The translations under genes and the position numbers were made by a program. From positions 1 to 54,738 of IMG/VR virus record IMGVR_UViG_3300027719_000273: DNA of 54,738 bases. One strand, written 5' to 3'. Of the stretch, positions 6,642 to 48,756 are shown one piece after another. Each line of letters starts with the position of its first letter. Within the stretch, counting starts at the first letter, position 1. The notes under the pieces are model-generated. The model did not search any database and had not been told where the DNA came from. It was given only the letters and a program-made list of their open reading frames with translations. Source of the DNA: a virus.

Positions 6642-7025
6642 CTACCTTATGGAGTTTTTGGTTTTGGTTTCCAGCTGTATTACTTCTTCTGCATATGTAA
6701 GTAGGTTCGCTTCTGCCTTCGCCAGCTGGTCGTCTAACCATTTGACGGCATCCTTTATCAGTTGGTCGATTTCTTCCGGTGTCCATAGCGTCCGGATCAG
6801 CCAGGGCAGGCTGGCGTATACAGCATTCCACTTAATAGGCCCGGTCTTGCTGCCGTAGGCCTGTTCTGCCTTTGCTACCAGGTTCCGAATTATCCTTATG
6901 ACGGCTTTTCTGCGGCCGATTTTCCACAGCCAGGCAAGGACGGCCAGGAATATTAGGACCAGCAGGACGTCCAGCCAGTGGAGTTTAAGGAACGTTAATA
7001 ATATTGTTACAAGTGTCATAATCAT
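6642..7025 (-). CDS. Phage holin, LLH type
   Basis: A 127-residue protein with one N-terminal transmembrane segment (residues about 3-34, LVTILLTFLKLHWLDVLLVL and following) and a basic stretch (KIGRRKAVIRIIR). The cytoplasmic helical region includes AEQAYGSKTG. Family LLH holins have the same layout: one membrane helix and a conserved AEQ-G-x-K-segment. It would permeabilise the membrane at the time of lysis. It is one base from the amidase gene and is the last gene before the strong late terminator. Confidence 0.78.
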   Translation of the reverse strand: MIMTLVTILLTFLKLHWLDVLLVLIFLAVLAWLWKIGRRKAVIRIIRNLVAKAEQAYGSKTGPIKWNAVYASLPWLIRTLWTPEEIDQLIKDAVKWLDDQLAKAEANLLTYAEEVIQLETKTKNSIR

Positions 7026-7026
7026 T

Positions 7027-7845
7027 TTACCCCCTTCTTAAGCCTTTGGCATTTGTAAAGGCTTTTGTTAAATTAGTAAGACTTACAGGTATTTCCCCGT
7101 TAAGGACTTTAAGCCAGTAAACCCGGTCGGTTATTAACCTGGCAGCCAGGGCAGCGTCTACAGCCCTTTCCTGATTCGTTGGTTCCACTTCCGGCTTGAC
7201 TTCGTAAACCAGGCCGTAAAACTCACAAACGCCCATAAGTATCTGGGTTGCAGTTTCTAGCTGGAAAGCAGCCGATGTCATAAGTACGGCTTCCCTAGGG
7301 TCGTCCATAAAACCCGCTTCAATAAGTACCGCGGGCATATTAGTTTCGCGTAGTACATGCAAGTCGCCCATTTTTACCCCGCGGTTTTTCTGTACAGTCC
7401 CGCGTAGTATGTGTTTATGTATTAATCTGGCTAACAGTTCACTTTCACCGCCAAACTTGAAACAGAAGGTTTCTACACCTTCGGCGCTGTTGCCTTCGAA
7501 AGTGTTTAGTATTGCGTTATAATGTTCGCTGATAAATAAGCTTATGGGCTTGCCGCCGATAAGTGCGCTTCCCAGCTGTTTTTTATAGGCAGCGTGGGCC
7601 GCGTTCGCCTTGTCTGTCCTGGTCTGTAGTGGTACGTTATTGTCGCCTGGTGCGACTTGTAACGTCTTAAAGCCCAGGCGCAGGGCGTCAGCTTCCAGTA
7701 GGTCAATAACTGCTCTATTGAATTCGTTTTCGTGGGTGAAGTGCCCGTCCGCGAATTTTGGAGTACGTTTACCTGGTGTTTCCATACCATGGCCGTCGTC
7801 GAGTATAAGCAGCGGTATAAATCCCAGTTTTGCTTTAATATCCAA
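7027..7845 (-). CDS. N-acetylmuramoyl-L-alanine amidase endolysin
   Basis: A 272-residue endolysin with an N-terminal amidase_3 fold. Zinc ligands visible are H19 (in LDDGHG), E39 (in THENEFNRAV) and the H in SEHYNA near 107, and the catalytic glutamate is in LIEAGFMDDP near 174. It cuts the amide bond between muramic acid and L-alanine in peptidoglycan. The C-terminal 65 residues are a small helical region with repeated charged and leucine-rich segments and are likely a cell-wall-binding or spacer part. There is no signal peptide, so export depends on the holin. The start is TTG, with AAAGGAGG eight bases upstream, one base after the XhlA stop. Confidence 0.93.
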   Translation of the reverse strand: MDIKAKLGFIPLLILDDGHGMETPGKRTPKFADGHFTHENEFNRAVIDLLEADALRLGFKTLQVAPGDNNVPLQTRTDKANAAHAAYKKQLGSALIGGKPISLFISEHYNAILNTFEGNSAEGVETFCFKFGGESELLARLIHKHILRGTVQKNRGVKMGDLHVLRETNMPAVLIEAGFMDDPREAVLMTSAAFQLETATQILMGVCEFYGLVYEVKPEVEPTNQERAVDAALAARLITDRVYWLKVLNGEIPVSLTNLTKAFTNAKGLRRG

Positions 7846-7846
7846 T

Positions 7847-8284
7847 TTATGGCCCTCCTTTACTTGCCAGGTAGCCGACTACAGCGGCCGCCAGCAGTTT
7901 AACAATTTCCTTTATAGTATTAAGCAGTTTTTCCCATTTCTGCGTTGTTACTTTTGCATTTGTAGCCGCCAGGGCTTCCGCCTTCTTTGCTTCGGTTACA
8001 GTTTCCGTTTCTTCCTTTCTGGTAAGGTTAGTTACCAGGTCCCCCATGAAGGCAAAAAGCCGTTCTTCCAGCCTGTTAAGTTGATCCTTTATTTCACAGA
8101 CATAAACCTTTGTACCGCCCTGGAATTCCATTATGTCTGCCAGATCTTGAGCGTGTTCTTTTACCTGGTAATTTATTTCGTCTACTTGCTTTTTCAATTC
8201 TATCATCTCTACTTTAAGCTTTTTTACGTCGTCACATTGTCCCTCTGGTCCGTGCGCCCCCTTGTTATCGTTATCCCCTGTCAT
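7847..8284 (-). CDS. xhlA: XhlA-type hemolysin/lysis accessory protein
   Basis: A 145-residue protein with a long coiled-coil region (residues about 18-85, including KDQLNRLEERL) and a C-terminal membrane segment (KLLAAAVVGYLASKG). XhlA proteins of PBSX-like phages have this order, a coiled coil followed by a C-terminal hydrophobic helix, and work with a holin and amidase in lysis. It precedes the amidase in the lysis cassette. It is longer than the usual 80-90 residues because of an extended N-terminus and an Ala/Thr-rich segment. The start is ATG with GGGGGT upstream. Confidence 0.7.
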   Translation of the reverse strand: MTGDNDNKGAHGPEGQCDDVKKLKVEMIELKKQVDEINYQVKEHAQDLADIMEFQGGTKVYVCEIKDQLNRLEERLFAFMGDLVTNLTRKEETETVTEAKKAEALAATNAKVTTQKWEKLLNTIKEIVKLLAAAVVGYLASKGGP

Positions 8285-8331
8285 TATGTTTACCCCCGTA
8301 TTCTATTTTCTTGATACTTTTCGTCTAACGT

Positions 8332-10317
8332 TTATACAAATACTTGTACAATATTTGATGATACTCTTTTCATAACTCTATAGCCGCTTTCACTATTTGT
8401 TGCTACTCCATTGTCGTTAGACTTACAGTATCCATTTACAATACACGTACCATCATCGCGCACTAATAATTTACCCATTAATCCTATTGCAGCCCACTCT
8501 TTTCTTTTTTCTCTAGGGGTATAATATACTGTACTATCCCAATCAGGATTATATATCTGTTGAATTTCTGCATGTTCTGGTGTAATTATATTTCCTTCGC
8601 TATCCAATTCATCAGGTATTATTACTTCATGATACTGTACCCTGCCCCAATCATCAGTTAAATATTTACCTTGCCAATGGTCATCCTGATTATCACCTAT
8701 AATTGACGGAGTAGCCGAAACAATACCTAATATGTAATTATCAAGTGAATTAGCTTTTCTTAGCTTATCCCCATCAAGTGTAACGAAGTAACCTACTCTG
8801 TCTTCATTACCTGGATTACTGTCAAGCCATTCGAAGTACTCTGCATAATCGGCCCCTGTAGAAGTATACGCCCCATCAGCATATGTTTGTCCATTGAATA
8901 GCACTTTAAATGCTAAACCCCTTGTGCTTGAATTTGTTCCATTGCCTATCATAAAAGCCTCTGTGGTCGCGTCATATGCGGTATCAGAAGCAGAGGAAAC
9001 AGTACCACATCGTCCTATTGCAGTTTGTGCATATTTTGATTGAGTATAATAGCCACCTGCCTGTGAATAATTTCCACTTGCTATTGTGCTATAGCCACCT
9101 GCATGTGAATCAATACCACTAGCAGTTGTATCGTAACCTTCAGCATGTGCTCTATCCGCGGTAGCCTCTGTGTTTCGTCCTTCTGTATATGAATACGCAC
9201 CACTTGCTGTTGTGTTATAACCACCTGCATGTGAGTAGTCTCCACTAGCAGTTGAGGCATCACCTTCAGCATGTGAGCTATATCCGGTAGCAAAACTAGC
9301 ATTACCCTCCGCATGTGAATAAGCACCACTTGCAGTTGTACTAGTACCTTCTGCATGCGAACTATCACCAGTTGCTAAAGTACCAATGCCTTCTGAATGC
9401 GAATTTAGGCCACTAGCTATTGTATTATTACCTTCTGCATGAGAAGATTCACCACTTGCTAAAGTATTATATCCTTCTGCATGCACTGGATAATATTGCG
9501 CTGTAATAAGTTCAATAGCGTACTTCCAGTCAGATGTTATTGTAGCTGTTGTATTCAAAGTTACTATTAAGCCATTTATTGCGGTTATAGGTATATTAAT
9601 TTTTGAAGTACTAAGGCTTACTTTTATCTGTAGTAAATCACCAACAGATAATCCTGTCACTGTATCTAAAGTTATTGTTTTAGAGGTATTATTATATTCT
9701 GTTATTTTATATGTTTTGCCGTAAGCTCCTAAAGAATACCGCCCTTCTGTATGTGAATAGTTACTTACCGCTACCGTATTATAACCCTCTGCATTTGCAT
9801 TTGTACCCGTTTCAATACAATCGGTGGCATTAACGTGTTTTGATGTATCTGTTTCGTGAGACTTAGCCGCATATGCTGTATCATGATTATGATTACCTAC
9901 CGAAACAGTACTTGAAGTAGTACCCGTAGGAACATTTGCTATAGGAACTTTAGCAGAAGCATCAAGTACAACTAAATTATTTGCTGTGCTATCTGCATGT
10001 TTACCATCAACCATGTCTGCATCAATAGTTGAACCAGAACCATCTATGGTCAATAATTTTGCTTTAACATCTGCGGCAGTATAAGAACTTGCAGGCAAAG
10101 CTGCATCTGCCTTTACCCCCTGCGCGGCTGTTGCATATACACCGTCGTGATTATGATCGCCTTCTGCTGCTGTTCCGGCTGTAGTGCCTAACTGCACATG
10201 CCCTGCATCAATTTTATCCCAGTTGTCGTTAAGCATTGTGGCAACATTAAAACTGTCGTTGCCCTCTGTTTCTGGATCTTTTTTAAGTAAATTCAAATTA
10301 GTTGTATAGCTTGCCAA
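8332..10317 (-). CDS. Tail fibre with YadA-head-like repeats and Peptidase_G2 domain
   Basis: A 661-residue receptor-binding or fibre protein. Residues 1-150 look like a phage attachment part. Residues about 279-426 hold about ten repeats of a 14-residue motif, SHAEGxxTxASGxx, as in YadA-like trimeric heads. Residues about 488-661 look like the Peptidase_G2 autoprocessing domain of phage appendages (GADYAEYFEWLDS, GIVSATPSIIG, WGRVQYHEVI). In that family the domain is an intramolecular chaperone that trimerises and cuts itself off. Its base composition is visibly more AT-rich than neighbouring genes, consistent with exchange by recombination. The start is TTG, with AAGGGGAT seven bases upstream. 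Confidence 0.82.
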   Translation of the reverse strand: MASYTTNLNLLKKDPETEGNDSFNVATMLNDNWDKIDAGHVQLGTTAGTAAEGDHNHDGVYATAAQGVKADAALPASSYTAADVKAKLLTIDGSGSTIDADMVDGKHADSTANNLVVLDASAKVPIANVPTGTTSSTVSVGNHNHDTAYAAKSHETDTSKHVNATDCIETGTNANAEGYNTVAVSNYSHTEGRYSLGAYGKTYKITEYNNTSKTITLDTVTGLSVGDLLQIKVSLSTSKINIPITAINGLIVTLNTTATITSDWKYAIELITAQYYPVHAEGYNTLASGESSHAEGNNTIASGLNSHSEGIGTLATGDSSHAEGTSTTASGAYSHAEGNASFATGYSSHAEGDASTASGDYSHAGGYNTTASGAYSYTEGRNTEATADRAHAEGYDTTASGIDSHAGGYSTIASGNYSQAGGYYTQSKYAQTAIGRCGTVSSASDTAYDATTEAFMIGNGTNSSTRGLAFKVLFNGQTYADGAYTSTGADYAEYFEWLDSNPGNEDRVGYFVTLDGDKLRKANSLDNYILGIVSATPSIIGDNQDDHWQGKYLTDDWGRVQYHEVIIPDELDSEGNIITPEHAEIQQIYNPDWDSTVYYTPREKRKEWAAIGLMGKLLVRDDGTCIVNGYCKSNDNGVATNSESGYRVMKRVSSNIVQVFV

Positions 10318-35229: not shown

Positions 35230-35417
35230 AGTCTTAAGCCCCTTTCTTCCAGGTATTTGTTTGCTTTGTCCGTCAGTTTTGCGACTGGTTCCGTAGTATA
35301 GTCCAGTTCCAGGTGGCCGGATTCTTCCAGCTTCTTAAGCATTGCGGAAAGGGCCAGGGTTCCTATCTGGCCCCCTTCCTGTTTGATAATGCATAGCAGT
35401 GCTTCACTGGTTTTCAT
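35226..35417 (-). CDS. Small winged-helix-like protein (63 aa)
   Basis: A 63-residue protein with a helix-strand layout like a minimal winged helix (GQIGTLALSAMLKKLEESGH then YTTEPVAKLTDKANKYLEE). It overlaps both neighbours. It might be a DNA-binding or adaptor protein; no signature confirms it. Confidence 0.5.
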   Translation of the reverse strand: MKTSEALLCIIKQEGGQIGTLALSAMLKKLEESGHLELDYTTEPVAKLTDKANKYLEERGLRL

Positions 35418-36168
35418 TTTTTGTGTATAGCTCTGGTACGAAGTCGGCAGCGTCTAAACGCTTAAAGGCCGCAGTCGCTCCCATAGGGCGGTTAAGCTCT
35501 AACGCCTGCGCTACAATTTCGTCGCTGGGTTCTTCGTCACACCTAACATATGCAATTTCGTTGTTGCTGTCTTTATACATTAAGTAGACACGCCATACGG
35601 GTTCCTTTTGTGAATTATGCGAACGAGTTCCAGCCCTTACCATAGTTCTATGGTATTCCTGCCAGTTTGTACGAAATAGGCCCATGTAGACGACGTCCCA
35701 GTACTGCCCGTTTCGGTAACATTCTTCTAGTACACGGCCTTCCTCTTTAAAGCCCACAGACTGGTATAAGTGCATAGCCCTTTCATTGAAGCTGTAGACG
35801 GTTATCGCTATTTTCCGACAGTTCACTTCCTGAAAGGCTACATACATAAGCAAAGCCATGAGCTGCTTTCCGTAGCCCTTATCGCGGAAGGCCTTACCTA
35901 TGAATAACATAGGATGGGCTGTGTGCGTTATCCAGTTCACAGTAAGGCTACAGTACCCTACTACTGCGTCGTCGATTCTCTGCCGGATCAGAAAGCGTAA
36001 GCCATCCCCTGTTATAACTTCTTCCAGCAGCTTATACGTTCTGGGTATTACAAAGTCCGCGGTACCTTCTATTCCTACCTGTACTTCGTAGTCGTTGTAA
36101 AGCTTGTACAATGCCTGGCCGCCTTCGTCGGTTACTGCGTCCAGGTATAAGTCTTTAGTGTAAAACAT
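35404..36168 (-). CDS. GNAT-family N-acetyltransferase with C-terminal extension
   Basis: A 254-residue protein. Residues about 5-165 form a GNAT domain: the acetyl-CoA loop GKAFRDKGYGKQLMALLMYV (Q/R-x-x-G-x-G/A type) and the later AITVYSFNERAMHLYQSVGF strand-helix pair are visible. The family moves acetyl from acetyl-CoA to amines of proteins, nucleotides or antibiotics. The C-terminal 75 residues are unique and carry acidic segments. Start at 36168 is preferred over 36195 because AAAGGGGGT lies six bases before it. It lies next to the radical SAM gene. Substrate unknown. Confidence 0.8.
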   Translation of the reverse strand: MFYTKDLYLDAVTDEGGQALYKLYNDYEVQVGIEGTADFVIPRTYKLLEEVITGDGLRFLIRQRIDDAVVGYCSLTVNWITHTAHPMLFIGKAFRDKGYGKQLMALLMYVAFQEVNCRKIAITVYSFNERAMHLYQSVGFKEEGRVLEECYRNGQYWDVVYMGLFRTNWQEYHRTMVRAGTRSHNSQKEPVWRVYLMYKDSNNEIAYVRCDEEPSDEIVAQALELNRPMGATAAFKRLDAADFVPELYTKNENQ

Positions 36169-36191
36169 TCCCTTACCCCCTTTATTCGTCG

Positions 36192-37025
36192 TCATACTGC
36201 TGTAAAAAACTCTTTATTACTTGAAACAATTGCTGCTACCCTACACCATGATCGTTGAAATGCCGCCCAGGTAGGATCTTGAAAGCCATTATCATCCATG
36301 TGTAGCATTGCGAACGGGATAAACCCAGCTTTCAGCGTGTCCTTGCAGCGCTTTTCTGCTTTTTCGAATGTATCCCCTGGGTATCCCATTAGCACATAGC
36401 AGAATGTTTTACGCTTCCTAAGTGTGTATCCGGCTTCTTGTAGTAATTTTCCGGCTATTATAAGCGGCTCGTAATCGTCCACTGTATCATATGCAAAGAA
36501 CATTTGTGCAGTTTTTACCTTTTGCATTAATTCCACATGCCAGGGTTTCAGTAGTTTAGATTCTAGCCCTCCTGAGAATACTGCCCTTTCGGGCTGCTTG
36601 GAAAGCATATCAAACACAGAAATAATATGATCTTTACTATTAAGCAGAAAGTTATCATCCTGTACTATATTCCCTTCGGTAATAGGCAATGGTCTTAGTT
36701 TTCCTGCTCTCTTATGGACCTTACAAAACCAGCAGCTATTATTACAGCCAACGCTTGTTATTACATAACCTTTATGTAAGTACAAACCGGGTACAAATGT
36801 GTCTGTAACCTGATCATATGCTGGGCCTCCGATTTTTACTGGTATGCCTGTTTTATACCAAGCATTTGCCAGACTCTCTGCATAAGGCTTATCGCCTGTA
36901 AATGATACTGATACGTGTATTTCATCAACTTCCGGTACTAATTTGGCTCTCGGATAACCGAAAAACACAAGCGGATCATCTGGAGTACCTTTTGTTTTTC
37001 TTGGAAAAACTCTTGCTATATTCAT
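36192..37025 (-). CDS. Radical SAM enzyme
   Basis: A 277-residue protein with a radical SAM cluster motif CxxxCxxC near residue 94 (VGCNNSCWFC) and downstream segments typical for SAM enzymes (SGGLESKLL). The family uses a 4Fe-4S cluster and S-adenosylmethionine to make a radical for difficult chemistry. Its base composition is more AT-rich than its neighbours, which suggests separate acquisition. It is between a GNAT and a set of small genes. The substrate cannot be told from the sequence; a phage nucleotide or RNA modification is possible, not shown. Confidence 0.78.
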   Translation of the reverse strand: MNIARVFPRKTKGTPDDPLVFFGYPRAKLVPEVDEIHVSVSFTGDKPYAESLANAWYKTGIPVKIGGPAYDQVTDTFVPGLYLHKGYVITSVGCNNSCWFCKVHKRAGKLRPLPITEGNIVQDDNFLLNSKDHIISVFDMLSKQPERAVFSGGLESKLLKPWHVELMQKVKTAQMFFAYDTVDDYEPLIIAGKLLQEAGYTLRKRKTFCYVLMGYPGDTFEKAEKRCKDTLKAGFIPFAMLHMDDNGFQDPTWAAFQRSWCRVAAIVSSNKEFFTAV

Positions 37026-37039
37026 TTTACTTATACCCC

Positions 37040-37279
37040 CTATTCTTCCGGGCCGTAGATTCCCGCCAGCGCCCCGGCGTTTCTACGGGTTTCTTCGTCC
37101 GATCCTACTAGTAATTTGGCTTCCGCTTGCTTCATTTCGATAAACGCTTTATTCTGTATGTAAAAGTCTGTACAGTTCATGGGATCCGGCGTACAATCCT
37201 TCTTCGCTTTGCCCTTACATTCCCGGCAGCAGGGAAGCGTCCCTGGCTGGTGTGGAAATTCGGATAGCTTTACTTTCAC
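37040..37279 (-). CDS. Cysteine-rich small protein (79 aa)
   Basis: A 79-residue protein with cysteines in CCREC and DCTPDPMNC, probably a metal-binding site, followed by an amphipathic helix. GTG start at 37279; GGGGGC is upstream. It overlaps the start of the 220-aa gene. Function unknown. Confidence 0.6.
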   Translation of the reverse strand: MKVKLSEFPHQPGTLPCCRECKGKAKKDCTPDPMNCTDFYIQNKAFIEMKQAEAKLLVGSDEETRRNAGALAGIYGPEE

Positions 37280-38368: not shown

Positions 38369-39049
38369 TTATCCCCCATTTCCAGTATGATGATTTTCCG
38401 GTATTGTACGCCCCAGGCTTTCGCGTCGGGTAGTTGGGACATTGTATAAGTCAATATGTTTACCCTTTACAGCGTCGCCTTTGTCCTCTACCGTAAAGAC
38501 GGCGCCTATACCTTCTATAACCACTTTAGTACCCAGCGGCAGTACTCTAAGGTCTGCTGCTATTGTATGGTTTTCTTTCACCATGGCACCGCTGTATGTT
38601 TCGCCGTAGCCTTCGTCGCCGGGGTTCTTACCTGTGCTTTCGTAGCCTGCCTTATAGGCTGTTATCTTGAATTCCTGGCCTAACGAATTAAATAGGTCAG
38701 AAGAAAGCCTATTACTGCGCCCACTGCTGCCCCTACTAGAAAGTTGCGTCGGGCTATTGTCTTCCGTGATTTCCGCATTATTTCCAGGTTGCGAAAACCT
38801 GCTTCTATTAGCTTCTGGGTCTGTTCCCGCAGCTGTAATACTTCTTGTTCTGCTTGTGCCAGCGCCTGGCGTAGCTGTGTATATGTTTTCCCCATTTCGT
38901 ACCTCTCTTTCCGTGTATATGGGCTGGGTTCCCTGCCTGGCCGTTCCCCCTTGTGCTTGTTCGTCATGTGTACAGCCCCCCAGTGCCAGGACTAGTATCG
39001 CCAGAAGGATAAACGCCCGGGGCTGTATTATTCGTCGTACTATTCTCAT
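38369..39049 (-). CDS. Lipoprotein with C-terminal 3D (MltA/RlpA-like) domain
   Basis: A 226-residue exported lipoprotein: arginine-rich n-region, hydrophobic h-region (AFILLAILVLAL) and lipobox LGGC with Cys26. Residues about 27-123 are a disordered Ser/Thr/Gly/Asn/Arg-rich linker. Residues about 127-215 form a 3D domain, with AADLRVLPLGTKVVIEG and FTVEDKGDAVKGKHIDLYN marking the conserved acids; such domains bind or cut glycan. The start is ATG at 39049 with GGAGGAGG upstream; the TTG at 39076 precedes the ribosome site. A second gene is encoded in the linker in another frame. Its role in a phage, possibly cell-wall remodelling or exclusion, is inference. Confidence 0.85.
   Translation of the reverse strand: MRIVRRIIQPRAFILLAILVLALGGCTHDEQAQGGTARQGTQPIYTEREVRNGENIYTATPGAGTSRTRSITAAGTDPEANRSRFSQPGNNAEITEDNSPTQLSSRGSSGRSNRLSSDLFNSLGQEFKITAYKAGYESTGKNPGDEGYGETYSGAMVKENHTIAADLRVLPLGTKVVIEGIGAVFTVEDKGDAVKGKHIDLYNVPTTRRESLGRTIPENHHTGNGG
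38680..38895 (-). CDS. Nested gene: coiled-coil tail-anchored membrane protein
   Basis: A 71-residue protein encoded in the +1 frame inside the lipoprotein gene, covering codons about 52-123. It has its own AGAGAGGT placed five bases before ATG. Residues 3-40 form an amphipathic helix with heptad character (TQLRQALAQAEQEVLQLREQ), then a basic segment (MRKSRKTIARRN) and a C-terminal membrane helix (FLVGAAVGAVIGFLLTYLIR). The layout is that of a real membrane-anchored coiled coil and not of an accidental frame. Like the Rz/Rz1 spanin pair, it combines a membrane protein with an overlapping lipoprotein, although the nesting is reversed. Confidence 0.65.
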   Translation of the reverse strand: MGKTYTQLRQALAQAEQEVLQLREQTQKLIEAGFRNLEIMRKSRKTIARRNFLVGAAVGAVIGFLLTYLIR

Positions 39050-39068: not shown

Positions 39069-40454
39069 TTATACAAAGTACTTAAGTATCGCCTGAGCTA
39101 TTTCTTCGTCGTAAGTGTCTTCGCAGGCGCCGTCTATGGTTATAATGGCATCGCCGTTTATAGCCAGTTCTTCCATATCGAAGGAATTAAGTATCAGCTT
39201 TTCTTCGAATACTCCTACCGTCGTCCTTATAGCCTTTTCAACCTTAAGGGCCATGACTTCCAGGGACCGCTTACGTATGTAGGCTTCTTTTACAAAGGTT
39301 TCGTATTCCGCTGGGTCTACCAGGTTTATAAGGTCCCTTACGAATATGCGGCGTATCTCCGTCGGTTCCAGCGCGTCCAATTCCAGGCCCATAGGTTCGC
39401 CGTCTATACCGCCTGTACGATCCAGCCATTTTTCCAGGTTCGCGGGCTTCGGGCTGTACTTGTTAGCTTCTACCAGGTCGTCGTCCAGCTGGTCCGGTGT
39501 TATGCCCACGCGCTTTACCTCGACGTTTATATGGCTCATACCTTGGGACGCCAGTATGTCCCTTACCTGGGTTTCCAGGGCTTCGGCGATATAGTACCCG
39601 GCCGGGTCGTAGTCTGTCATGGTCAGAATGTAAACTGTGTCGGCCCCGCCGTACAGGTCCTTTTCCTTGTAGTATCTGTCGCAGCCTATTTCCACTATCT
39701 TATGACGGCGTAGGAAGTCGGCGACGTTGCTTTTATACAGCTTTACCAGTTCCACTATCTGCACGTCCGTTTCGTCCAGTTCTTCCGGTTTGTATTCTTT
39801 CAGTAGATATTCGTTGTCTTCTACATACTGCTTCCAGTCGGCGTATTCGCTGCCGTCAAGTGGGAAAAGTTCGCCCTGGCTGTCGGCCTTCGCTAGCTTC
39901 ATACCGCGTATTAAGTCTTCCATGGCGCCCAGGCTGTTCTGTCCTTTACAGGATATGCAGCTACAGCCGAATAGCTGGGCTATGTCCTTTATTATGTTGT
40001 ATACAGTGTCTTTCTCTGTCGCTATGATAATGTTACTGTATGGGGCCAGTGTGGCCTTATAGCAGTATATCGCGCGGTTTACCGTGTAGTAGGTTACGCT
40101 GGGGTTTTCCCTCTGCCTGGAATTGTCCAGTATATGAAGGTCCTTGTAAGTGAGATAGCCACGACGCAGAAGGTCGGCCACGTATCGGGACAGTGTCGCA
40201 TCCCATTTCGTAAGGCTTTCTTCGGTCATATCTTCACTTTTTAGCTTGCCCAGTTTGTCCAGTGTCGGCTTTACGATACTGTACCATAAGCTACGTAGGC
40301 TTCGGTCGTAGTTTACGCTGGGGTAGTTCTTTTCCGACATAATGATGCTACGCATAAGGTAGCTGTTATCCACGTCCGGCGGAAATACTACCTGTAGTTC
40401 AGCCTTCGTTATACTTTTAGCGTTTTGCAATAATCTGTAAAATAAGTCTGCCAT
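39069..40454 (-). CDS. Topoisomerase VI subunit A/Spo11-like TOPRIM protein
   Basis: A 461-residue protein with a winged-helix-like N-terminal half (residues 45-125, including SLRSLWYSIVKPTLDK, where Y is a candidate active-site tyrosine) and a TOPRIM half. TOPRIM signals are the acid in ATEKDTVYN near 150 and DYDPAG near 280, followed by VKRVGITPDQL, all as in TopoVI-A. The CKGQNS segment resembles a conserved Gly loop. The C-terminal helical part has ELDALEP. Archaeal/plant-type TopoVI makes double-strand breaks with a GHKL B subunit, which is not visible here. It may be a mini-A type nicking or break-forming factor; enzyme activity is inference. AAGGAGGT lies upstream. Confidence 0.65.
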   Translation of the reverse strand: MADLFYRLLQNAKSITKAELQVVFPPDVDNSYLMRSIIMSEKNYPSVNYDRSLRSLWYSIVKPTLDKLGKLKSEDMTEESLTKWDATLSRYVADLLRRGYLTYKDLHILDNSRQRENPSVTYYTVNRAIYCYKATLAPYSNIIIATEKDTVYNIIKDIAQLFGCSCISCKGQNSLGAMEDLIRGMKLAKADSQGELFPLDGSEYADWKQYVEDNEYLLKEYKPEELDETDVQIVELVKLYKSNVADFLRRHKIVEIGCDRYYKEKDLYGGADTVYILTMTDYDPAGYYIAEALETQVRDILASQGMSHINVEVKRVGITPDQLDDDLVEANKYSPKPANLEKWLDRTGGIDGEPMGLELDALEPTEIRRIFVRDLINLVDPAEYETFVKEAYIRKRSLEVMALKVEKAIRTTVGVFEEKLILNSFDMEELAINGDAIITIDGACEDTYDEEIAQAILKYFV

Positions 40455-45606: not shown

Positions 45607-48600
45607 TTATAGTTCGTCTTCGTAGTTATCGAACAGACCCAGTTCGAAGGCCTTTGCAATATACGCATTAAAGCGGGCTGTTTTCCTGTAGCCCCCGGTC
45701 GTTACCTCTACCATCTTAAGCCGGGTAAGTGCTGTCGCTACAGCCTTCGCTTCTTCCTTGCTTATCGCCAGCATAGCTTCCAGGTCTGACTGTCTTAAGT
45801 ACTTTGTTCTGGCGAACAGGTTAAGGAATTCAGTAAACTTAATTTCGCCTTTAAGGGTGTCGACTTCCTTAAGCTTTTCAGTAAGCTTCTGGTACTTTGG
45901 GTCGTCAAGTTCTTCTTCCTTTACGCATAGCTTCGCGTAGTAGTTCAGTCCGCAGCCACCAGCGTTATATACACCTTTAAGGTAGGATATGATAAAATCA
46001 ACGTGTCCCGGCCATACCTGTATACGTTCACCGCTTTCGTCTGTGCTGTGCAGTAGGGCTGACAGGGCGACCGATAAACGGGCGATTTTGTTACGCTGAT
46101 CCGAAGGTGTAACCAGTGGAATGTCCGAAGCGTTCCCGTACAGCCTGGAAAGTTCCGTAGCGCCTTCCAGTATCTTGTCCTGGGCGTCCGCGGTTATTAT
46201 GACGTCGTCGGTCTTCCTGGACCACGCGAAAAGGATATTATCTTTTAGCAGTTCGGCTGTTATCTGTACCGGGTACGTCTTAAGCTTTTGGTTATACAGT
46301 TCCGGGTCTACGTCGCTATATCGCATGAAGGTAGCGAAGTCGAAACGTCTTATATCCTCATTGTTGAAAATGTCTTTAAGCGCTTCTACGCCCTGGGTGT
46401 AGTCGGAAAGTCTTTTACCATGCGGTACGTTACCGGACAGTATGGCCCTTACTCTGCAAGGAGTTTCAGCCGTTACAGCCCTTTTGACTTCCAGTTTTCC
46501 GTCAGATCTTGCCAGGGTCATTTCCCCGTATTCGTCCTTCGTTATTCCGGTATCTTCGTCAATCCAGATAAGTTCCCGGTCCGCAAGCGGCCAGGCGCCC
46601 CATACTATATACCAGGCCCCGCCAGTGCCAGATTGCTCCATTTTGTAGGTTAAGCCTGTACGGCTTGTACTTTCGGCGTTTACCCTGGTGCCCAGGCCTA
46701 CAAATTTCTGGACCTTTTCAATAAGGGCGCTTTTGCCTGTCGCGGTGTCCCCTAGTATCTTCATTTCTACCCAGCCCCTTATCGGTTGATTATCCCAGGG
46801 TACCGTAAAACGTAGGACACTATGATAAGTAAGTAGGACGCCTAGCAGTACTTCGTCCCTTTCGACTATATGGGTTACGTTATAGGTAAGGTCGTCCATA
46901 ATAGCCTGTAGCTTTTCGTATATGGCTTCCTGGGTGTGTTCGTGCGGTCTGAATATCTTAAGGTTTTCCTTGATTTCATCGGTTATTTTGAAGCGTTCTA
47001 CGACGTCCTGCAATGGCTTTGCAGCTTTTATAATTATCGTACCTTCCTGGTTCTTCGGGTGCGGGAATACGTAGCCATCGATTTCGTAGTACTTGTTTTC
47101 CTGTATATTGAGGTCGCCTACGCTGTATATTTTACGTAGTACGTACTTCCCTTCGGTTACGGCTTTTTCGTCGATAGCCCCTATGTCGTTGTCTTCGGCC
47201 ATGGGTATTGTCAGCAGTTCGTCTAGGTTTACACTTTCTACCGTCGTCATATCGAAGCGCTGGCAGGCTGGTATAGTACTTACCTGGCGAAGTATCCCTT
47301 TTATGTTGTCGTCGCCAACGCCGCACATTTGTAAAAGTTCGCGGTCCTGGACATTCAGTGCCTTGTATATAGTCCCATTTTCTATGTTGTACAACGGACA
47401 GTGGACCTTTTTACAGTTCTTCTTACCCCAGCAGCTGTATTCTACTTTCTTCGGAACTATATATGGGGTATGCTTCTTCCCTGCAACCATTATACGAGTC
47501 TTTACAAGCTTCCCGGTAAATTCAGCCTTTCCTGTCTGTGCTAGGTGTAAGGCTGTGGCTTCTTCCTCTACTTCGTTGTTTTGTTTAAGGCAGGGACAAA
47601 GTTCATAAGTACACGCGACACGGTCGTATTCGTCGTTTCCTGGTTGTTTCGGTCCATGCAGTGACCGGATAAACGCGCAGCCGAAACGGTAAGCGTTTTC
47701 CTGTCCGTATACAGCGTCTATAACACTGCGAGTATTGGCTACCCTTTGTTGTGAACTGTATTTCGTATCTGCGCTAGTATGCTTAATCACCCAATCTGTC
47801 AGTACTTCGGCTGTTTCTTCCTTCGTAAAGCCCGCATCTTTGTAATAGCAAGCCAGCTGGACCGTCGCCTGGTTCCTGTCGCCGTCCTTCTTCCAGCCAC
47901 CTTTCAGAATGTCCAGGACACATACGGGCGGGTTTTGTTTATCAAAGTAGTAGACTTCGTTACTGTATCGACTGGTACTTGTTGCTTCTGCCTGTTCGTA
48001 TTCCTTAAGCTTATCTACGTATAAGGCGAAAGCAAACTTACGCAGTTTTAGCGCTTTCTTCCGGTCTTCGCCTGAAAGCCCTACGTCCTTCCGTGGTTGC
48101 TTTGCCAGTTCCTTTATTTGTTCCAAGTTTAAAAGTCTTAATTCCTCTATGGTTAATTCGATTTTAAATAGTCTGGTATTTTGGTGTATGCTATTCGGTA
48201 AACGCAGCATACGGGCGCTGGTGTATACCGCGGGGTCGATACTTTTAAGTGGTATAATCTTTTCCCTGTTTTCCCCGTCCGGTCCTGATTCTGTTATTCT
48301 ATCCCCCAGGCGATACTTAAGGTAGTTCGCGATATGGTTAAAGGCTTTATGTAGGTCGTTCCTGGGTTCTATCCCTATTGCCTGGTTTGCTATGAGGATA
48401 TGGAAGCCCTTACTACCGGAAAAATATACCCATATATCGCTTTCCTTAAGGTCCAGCTCATGTAAGAAAAAGTCTACGATACGTACAGCTTCGTCTTTCG
48501 CTATTTGCGGGTTTTCCTTGTAGTCAAGGTCGAAGAAAAGGGGTGCCGCGTACGACTCCCCTTTTGTCCTTGTACTGTTAGCGTACCGCTGTACCGTTAT

Positions 48601-48756
48601 GAAACAATTGAAATTTAAAGCGTGTTCCTGCTGGTATTTTGCCACTTCTCCGACCTCTATACGGGTCCATTCGTGGTTTTTACCGTTTATATCGGTATAC
48701 CAGAAATCAACATATTTGAAGTCGGCCAGTTTTAGCGTTTTATCTGTGTCACTCAT
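45607..48756 (-). CDS. AEP-type primase fused to MCM-like helicase
   Basis: A 1049-residue replication protein. N-terminal AEP primase: FDLDY (metal acids, near 75-79), SGSKGFH (near 113-119) and the third acid in SIDPAVYTSARMLRLP near 173. Middle zinc positions are CTYELCPC near 382-389 and CWGKKNC...C near 442-453, preceded by a TPYIVPKKVEYSC strand as in MCM N-domains. C-terminal AAA+: Walker A GDTATGKSALIE (669-680), Walker B ELIWIDED (728-735), sensor AILSGNVP near 772 and an arginine-finger-like DIRRFDF near 801. It would prime and unwind at the phage origin. AEP-MCM fusions are known from Bacillus mobile elements. AAGGGGGC lies upstream of ATG. Confidence 0.85.
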   Translation of the reverse strand: MSDTDKTLKLADFKYVDFWYTDINGKNHEWTRIEVGEVAKYQQEHALNFNCFITVQRYANSTRTKGESYAAPLFFDLDYKENPQIAKDEAVRIVDFFLHELDLKESDIWVYFSGSKGFHILIANQAIGIEPRNDLHKAFNHIANYLKYRLGDRITESGPDGENREKIIPLKSIDPAVYTSARMLRLPNSIHQNTRLFKIELTIEELRLLNLEQIKELAKQPRKDVGLSGEDRKKALKLRKFAFALYVDKLKEYEQAEATSTSRYSNEVYYFDKQNPPVCVLDILKGGWKKDGDRNQATVQLACYYKDAGFTKEETAEVLTDWVIKHTSADTKYSSQQRVANTRSVIDAVYGQENAYRFGCAFIRSLHGPKQPGNDEYDRVACTYELCPCLKQNNEVEEEATALHLAQTGKAEFTGKLVKTRIMVAGKKHTPYIVPKKVEYSCWGKKNCKKVHCPLYNIENGTIYKALNVQDRELLQMCGVGDDNIKGILRQVSTIPACQRFDMTTVESVNLDELLTIPMAEDNDIGAIDEKAVTEGKYVLRKIYSVGDLNIQENKYYEIDGYVFPHPKNQEGTIIIKAAKPLQDVVERFKITDEIKENLKIFRPHEHTQEAIYEKLQAIMDDLTYNVTHIVERDEVLLGVLLTYHSVLRFTVPWDNQPIRGWVEMKILGDTATGKSALIEKVQKFVGLGTRVNAESTSRTGLTYKMEQSGTGGAWYIVWGAWPLADRELIWIDEDTGITKDEYGEMTLARSDGKLEVKRAVTAETPCRVRAILSGNVPHGKRLSDYTQGVEALKDIFNNEDIRRFDFATFMRYSDVDPELYNQKLKTYPVQITAELLKDNILFAWSRKTDDVIITADAQDKILEGATELSRLYGNASDIPLVTPSDQRNKIARLSVALSALLHSTDESGERIQVWPGHVDFIISYLKGVYNAGGCGLNYYAKLCVKEEELDDPKYQKLTEKLKEVDTLKGEIKFTEFLNLFARTKYLRQSDLEAMLAISKEEAKAVATALTRLKMVEVTTGGYRKTARFNAYIAKAFELGLFDNYEDEL

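Follow-up and report, generated by a model that had tools for sequence, protein, structure and literature searches.

Embedded gene pairs in which one frame lies +1 to the other are already known from phages, the closest described example being lambda, where the +1 frame of Rz contains Rz1 (PMC6139136). The locus described here, found in a 54,738-nucleotide stretch of viral DNA (the window), resembles Rz/Rz1 in that two genes for envelope proteins are fully nested in +1, one product being a coiled-coil protein and the other carrying a low-complexity segment and a lipobox. It differs in that the nested partner is the coiled-coil protein, whose membrane helix is C-terminal and whose coil is predicted to be cytoplasmic, and in that the host gene encodes a domain of muralytic type, the known hosts are monoderm and the pair lies outside the lysis cassette; it is an embedded pair, not a spanin. 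In size and architecture the inner protein also recalls phage proteins of the XhlA type (coiled coil plus C-terminal membrane helix). In contrast to these, its gene adjoins neither holin nor amidase, a separate coil protein lies by the amidase of the window (Table 1), and the match of the 71-aa form to XhlA was not significant (PHROG 937, E = 0.3). The literature searched yielded no account of phage 3D genes with another gene nested inside them.

The outer gene and the frame nested in its stalk

The outer protein matched the Pfam 3D family with E = 4e-9, and a profile of its subfamily matched the YuiC structures 4WLI, 4WLK and 4WJT with E about 7e-28. YuiC D162 is the catalytic carboxylate, and the roles of the residues of the aspartate triad have been described (PMC4499186); the corresponding aspartates of the outer protein (Table 1) are invariant in all 11 outer proteins of the subfamily. 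On the grounds of this triad, which includes the equivalent of YuiC D162, and of the match to the YuiC profile, the outer protein is predicted to be a membrane-anchored lytic transglycosylase of the YuiC/MltA type, which would cleave peptidoglycan to 1,6-anhydro products. The likeness to YuiC and the Sps (stationary-phase survival) 3D proteins of Firmicutes and to YorM of prophage SPbeta comprises the 3D domain, the three aspartates and the motif YTAGxESTGKxPGDP; the phage subfamily differs from them by its long disordered stalk, the +1 frame of which holds a second gene. In the window this linker spans residues 25-124 (about 100 residues) and is disordered in the AlphaFold2 model (mean pLDDT of the outer protein, 46). 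A membrane anchor is present in 11 of 11 outer homologues, and a lipobox in the window's copy only, the other 10 being without one. We know of no role of phage 3D enzymes in phage biology.

Table 1. Positions of the outer and nested genes, their signals and the lysis-cassette genes (window coordinates unless a locus is named)
Feature	Position	Strand	Remarks
Outer 3D-domain gene	38369..39049	-	ORF, 226 aa; signal/anchor, linker and C-terminal 3D (YuiC/MltA-like) domain
Outer lipoprotein signal/anchor	38972..39049	-	ends in lipobox LALGGC (Cys26)
3D domain of outer protein	38441..38674	-	D166, D189, D200 = YuiC D129, D151, D162
Nested gene, long form	38680..38967	-	+1 frame, 95 aa, MTNKHKGERPG...LLTYLIR
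Nested gene, short form	38680..38895	-	+1 frame, internal ATG, 71 aa
Shine-Dalgarno of long start	38976..38981	-	G6 run, -9.4 kcal/mol; overlaps outer Gly-Gly lipobox codons
Shine-Dalgarno of short start	38902..38910	-	AAAGAGAGG, duplex -13.9 kcal/mol
C-terminal transmembrane helix of nested protein	38686..38742	-	FLVGAAVGAVIGFLLTYLI
Internal start, window	38895		
Internal start, L002	L002:4717		
Internal start, L021	L021:7768		
Internal start, L025	L025:8125		
Internal start, L033	L033:1679		
Internal start, L038	L038:1664		
Lysis cassette, small membrane protein	6642-7025	-	
Lysis cassette, Amidase_3	7027-7845	-	
Lysis cassette, coiled-coil-like protein	7847-8284	-	C-terminal hydrophobic stretch

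The initial annotation had pointed to a 71-residue +1 frame that covers the outer linker, has a Shine-Dalgarno of its own and encodes a coil-like helix and a C-terminal membrane helix. All of these features were borne out, the membrane helix having a hydrophobicity of KD 2.35. The start at 38895 stood only in part: it has the strong Shine-Dalgarno, but the open frame also begins at 38967, directly behind the lipobox Cys codon of the outer gene. Judged by the 5th percentile of duplex energies in these genes (-10.3 kcal/mol), the Shine-Dalgarno at 38895 is the stronger of the two; the long start is the conserved one. Based on 11 aligned homologues (the structure-prediction alignments omitted L069), AlphaFold2 modeled the 95-aa form as a single continuous helix over residues 19-94 with a mean pLDDT of 87, which fits a coiled coil followed by a C-terminal membrane helix, the helix being predicted and the coiled-coil pairing putative. 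The 15 residues before the membrane helix carry a net charge of +5, and one Arg follows it. The nested proteins belong to no Pfam or PHROGs family, and none is common to the 12 members.

Conservation and selection of the nested frame

A tblastn search of phage records pointed to Bacillus phage vB_BboS-125 (Elmenteitavirus), with a polymerase 50% and a 3D domain 62% identical to those of the window. Its gene BboS125_00054 is the same 3D gene and contains the same nested +1 ORF (L002:4609-5010), coiled-coil-like and with a C-terminal membrane helix; this ORF is unannotated in the record and, unlike in the window, the outer anchor is without a lipobox. The genome paper of this phage makes no mention of its 3D gene (PMC6375668). 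Further loci were obtained by searching alignments of two and then five 3D proteins against viral contigs and genomes, and one more by a protein search of plasmids. Single-protein queries (P0001 and P0002) had no match in viral contigs, and the inner protein alone had none among phage records; a match in genome G368 (L068) was rejected as a false positive, with stops in frame and a position in a sugar-transporter region.

The subfamily thus collected has 10 members besides the window: L002 (vB_BboS-125), L006, L008, L009, L015 (Paenibacillus sp. L3-i20), L021, L025, L033, L038 and L069 (Bacillus velezensis plasmid p3). The nested frame, whose conservation the initial annotation had proposed to examine in homologues, is present in all 10 of these diverged relatives and so in 11 of 11 genes, and no relative in the subfamily has the outer gene with a broken nested frame. 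When, as a control, the 3D domains of all retrieved loci were scanned (63 distinct ones), the nested ORF was found in 11/11 subfamily members and in 0/52 others; the profile ranking in this control is circular, as the profile was built from the 11, and the absence of the nest in the 52 is not. Known hosts, which are those of relatives only, are Bacillus bogoriensis, B. velezensis and Paenibacillus. In a tree of 3D domains the nested members cluster, with 4 changes against 10.4 in shuffles, the tree being too short to show a single origin.

The boundaries of the nested gene are conserved as well. The frame is +1 in all 11 distinct genes, and its stop lies in every one of them within about 13 nt of where the first 3D-domain motif begins, being in eight a TAA drawn from the Ile-Thr codons of that motif. 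In 10 of the 11 genes the long start falls at outer residue 21-31, just past the membrane anchor; the G-rich run preceding it (TGGGGG, TAGGGGG, GGAGGG etc.) doubles as the codons for the glycines with which the anchor closes. L008 departs from this, having a GTG start behind AAAGGGGG. In seven genes (window, L002, L006, L021, L025, L033 and L038) a second start codon lies further inside the nested frame, behind a strong Shine-Dalgarno (-10.6 to -16.0 kcal/mol), making it plausible that two products, one long and one short, arise from the two starts. The inner proteins themselves are less uniform: the motif Y-x-x-A-W-x-x-x-K is common to those of five nested loci and missing from that of the window, and there is little common sequence outside the Bacillus/Paenibacillus group.

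The nested frame was compared with 5,000 shuffles per gene, in which synonymous codons of the outer gene were permuted across the overlap and the outer protein was kept. No shuffle of the window gene (0/5,000) gave an open +1 frame with an equally strong C-terminal helix, and in 7 of the 11 genes none of the 5,000 matched both the length of the open frame and the helix (P < 2e-4). Frame and helix were matched by 0.02% of the shuffles in L038, 0.5% in L008, 0.7% in L006 and 12.7% in L009; the result is moderately significant for L006 and L008, and L009 alone is not significant (P = 0.13). Identity in the closest pair amounts to 55% for the inner protein, as against 40% for the outer protein across the overlap. 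Substitutions at the three codon positions numbered 9, 5 and 41 in the 3D part and 46, 47 and 39 in the overlap, where the third-position excess is gone, a flat pattern that could alternatively come from a loosely constrained linker. Codon usage was compared at eight loci (L033, L038 and L069 were left out): it is native in the inner frame and not in the outer overlap at four of them (window, L002, L021 and L025) and reversed, with the outer frame native and the inner not, in L006 and L009.

A homologue of the inner protein outside the nest, which the initial annotation had suggested seeking, was found with a profile of inner proteins (E = 1.4e-10) in a Paenibacillaceae genome (G261). This stand-alone gene is intact, has a GTG start with GGAGG, is flanked by the same upstream and downstream neighbors and carries the motif Y-x-x-V-W-E-A-E-K. 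The frame matching the outer gene contains a stop and is without anchor and 3D domain, and no 3D gene was found within 55 kb. The surrounding region is that of a prophage akin to the window, with identities of 63% for the primase, 49% for the polymerase and 36-56% for tail-region proteins; here the 3D gene has been lost and the inner gene retained at the same locus. Since inner and outer genes each occur alone as well, the two are unlikely to be strictly co-dependent, and obligate pairing is contradicted by this prophage. A programmed frameshift joining the two frames is disfavored by the conservation of start codon and Shine-Dalgarno and by the copy in the prophage, which has its own start without an outer gene.

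Taken together, we consider it probable (about 0.7), from sequence comparison, that the inner gene is a real, translated and independently selected gene for a tail-anchored membrane protein overprinted on the linker of an enzyme. Few out-of-frame genes that are fully nested have comparative support, and annotation software excludes such genes. The nest family has been maintained in phages and prophages of Bacillus and Paenibacillus and in a phage-like plasmid, and a stand-alone homologue exists; the reality of the inner frame is therefore directly testable. The family suggests a coding rule for overprinting, in which a coiled coil in one frame is a disordered stalk in another, and it brings a further, unannotated membrane protein to a locus of the replication cluster.

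Topology and possible functions

All 12 inner proteins have a net positive charge before the membrane helix and at most one positive charge after it, and their net charge over the open frame ranges from +3 to +19. Because the positive charge lies on the N side of a C-terminal helix, the coil should face the cytoplasm by the positive-inside rule. Frame 0 would accordingly yield a membrane-anchored, outward-facing 3D enzyme on a disordered stalk, and frame +1 a small basic coiled-coil protein made from its own ribosome-binding site or sites inside the anchor and stalk codons. The last 20 or so residues of the inner protein would form the helix embedded in the cytoplasmic membrane, and the coil would project into the cytoplasm. 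As the stalk would tolerate almost any sequence, the coil could be overprinted on it with both proteins kept, both probably being made from a single mRNA.

The window and the examined relatives all have the locus between the DNA polymerase and the terminase, among genes of replication and nucleotide metabolism. Because of this position, early or middle expression is likely; the position is also the sole clue to function. We tentatively suggest that the inner protein is an early or middle envelope factor at the inner face of the membrane, acting for example in superinfection exclusion or in local remodeling beside the 3D enzyme. A fuller proposal, which we regard as doubtful, is that the locus represents an undescribed nested envelope module of Gram-positive phages, in which an outward muralytic enzyme and an inward tail-anchored coil, the latter made in two lengths from dual starts, would act together at the membrane during infection. 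If true, the module would be a monoderm counterpart of Rz/Rz1 in coding style, not by descent.

In a true two-component envelope system, the coil protein would bind the 3D enzyme, or control it, from the other side of the membrane, in the service of exclusion or of regulated wall cutting, and nesting would ensure that the two are made together. Such a system would accord with two membrane proteins encoded on one mRNA and a nest kept in 11/11 members; other phage 3D proteins (L003, L004, L010, L012, L027 and L074) contain, between their anchor and the 3D domain, a segment in the same frame that resembles a coiled coil. However, the syntenic prophage retains the inner gene with no 3D gene within 55 kb, 3D proteins without a nest are common, and the coil is predicted on the cytoplasmic side, away from the 3D domain, so that we hold such a system to be possible but rather improbable. 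The main alternative to an envelope factor, suggested by the place of the gene in the replication cluster, is that the inner protein anchors or organizes phage DNA replication at the membrane and that nesting is genome economy only. The position between polymerase and terminase, the basic and predictedly cytoplasmic coil and the survival of the inner gene alone agree with it, but the nested proteins have no similarity in Pfam or PHROGs to known replication-membrane proteins, and we consider this role unlikely.

A chance ORF is ruled out by the shuffles, the 0/52 controls and the conservation of the frame. Linker composition does favor open alternative frames (the probability of an open frame alone reaches 0.24 in shuffles of L006 and 0.60 in those of L009), but given that the shuffles fail to reproduce helix and frame together, that start, Shine-Dalgarno and stop are conserved, that a stand-alone homologue exists and that the controls are negative, an untranslated by-product of a low-complexity linker is very improbable. 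Least probable of all, and largely refuted for the family, is the spanin-like or diderm-lysis role raised in the initial annotation, in which the pair would break the outer membrane at lysis: a lipoprotein and a coiled-coil membrane protein are nested out of frame as in lambda (PMC6139136), but a lipobox occurs in only 1/11 outer proteins, the outer gene encodes an enzyme domain in place of an o-spanin, the membrane helix of all 12 inner proteins is C-terminal with the coil predicted to be cytoplasmic, where an i-spanin has an N-terminal helix and a periplasmic coil, the isolated relatives infect Bacillus, and the amidase cassette of the window is about 30 kb from the nest at 38.4-39.0 kb.

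Neighboring genes in the window

The probable lysis cassette of the window occupies 6642-8284 (- strand; Table 1). In vB_BboS-125 the amidase is at 8087-9184 (PMC6375668), and the 3D gene, at 36434-37204, is likewise far from it. Elsewhere, 8332-10317 (-) encodes a tail-side protein with many degenerate SHAEGxxTxASG repeats, like the head repeats of trimeric adhesins.

Directly upstream of the nested pair, 39069-40454 (-) encodes a topoisomerase-like protein of 461 aa (PHROG 6247, E = 4e-10) with no relative in phage records or viral contigs. Genes for a GNAT acetyltransferase and a radical-SAM-like protein stand side by side in the early region (35404-37025, -). The six non-nested phage 3D proteins with a coil-like segment in their own frame are often encoded beside DNA replication genes. 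Finally, 45607-48756 (-) encodes a primase of archaeal/eukaryotic type (DNA_primase_S, E = 2e-9) fused to an MCM helicase domain (E = 6e-13), a fusion that has a relative with 63% identity in the G261 prophage.
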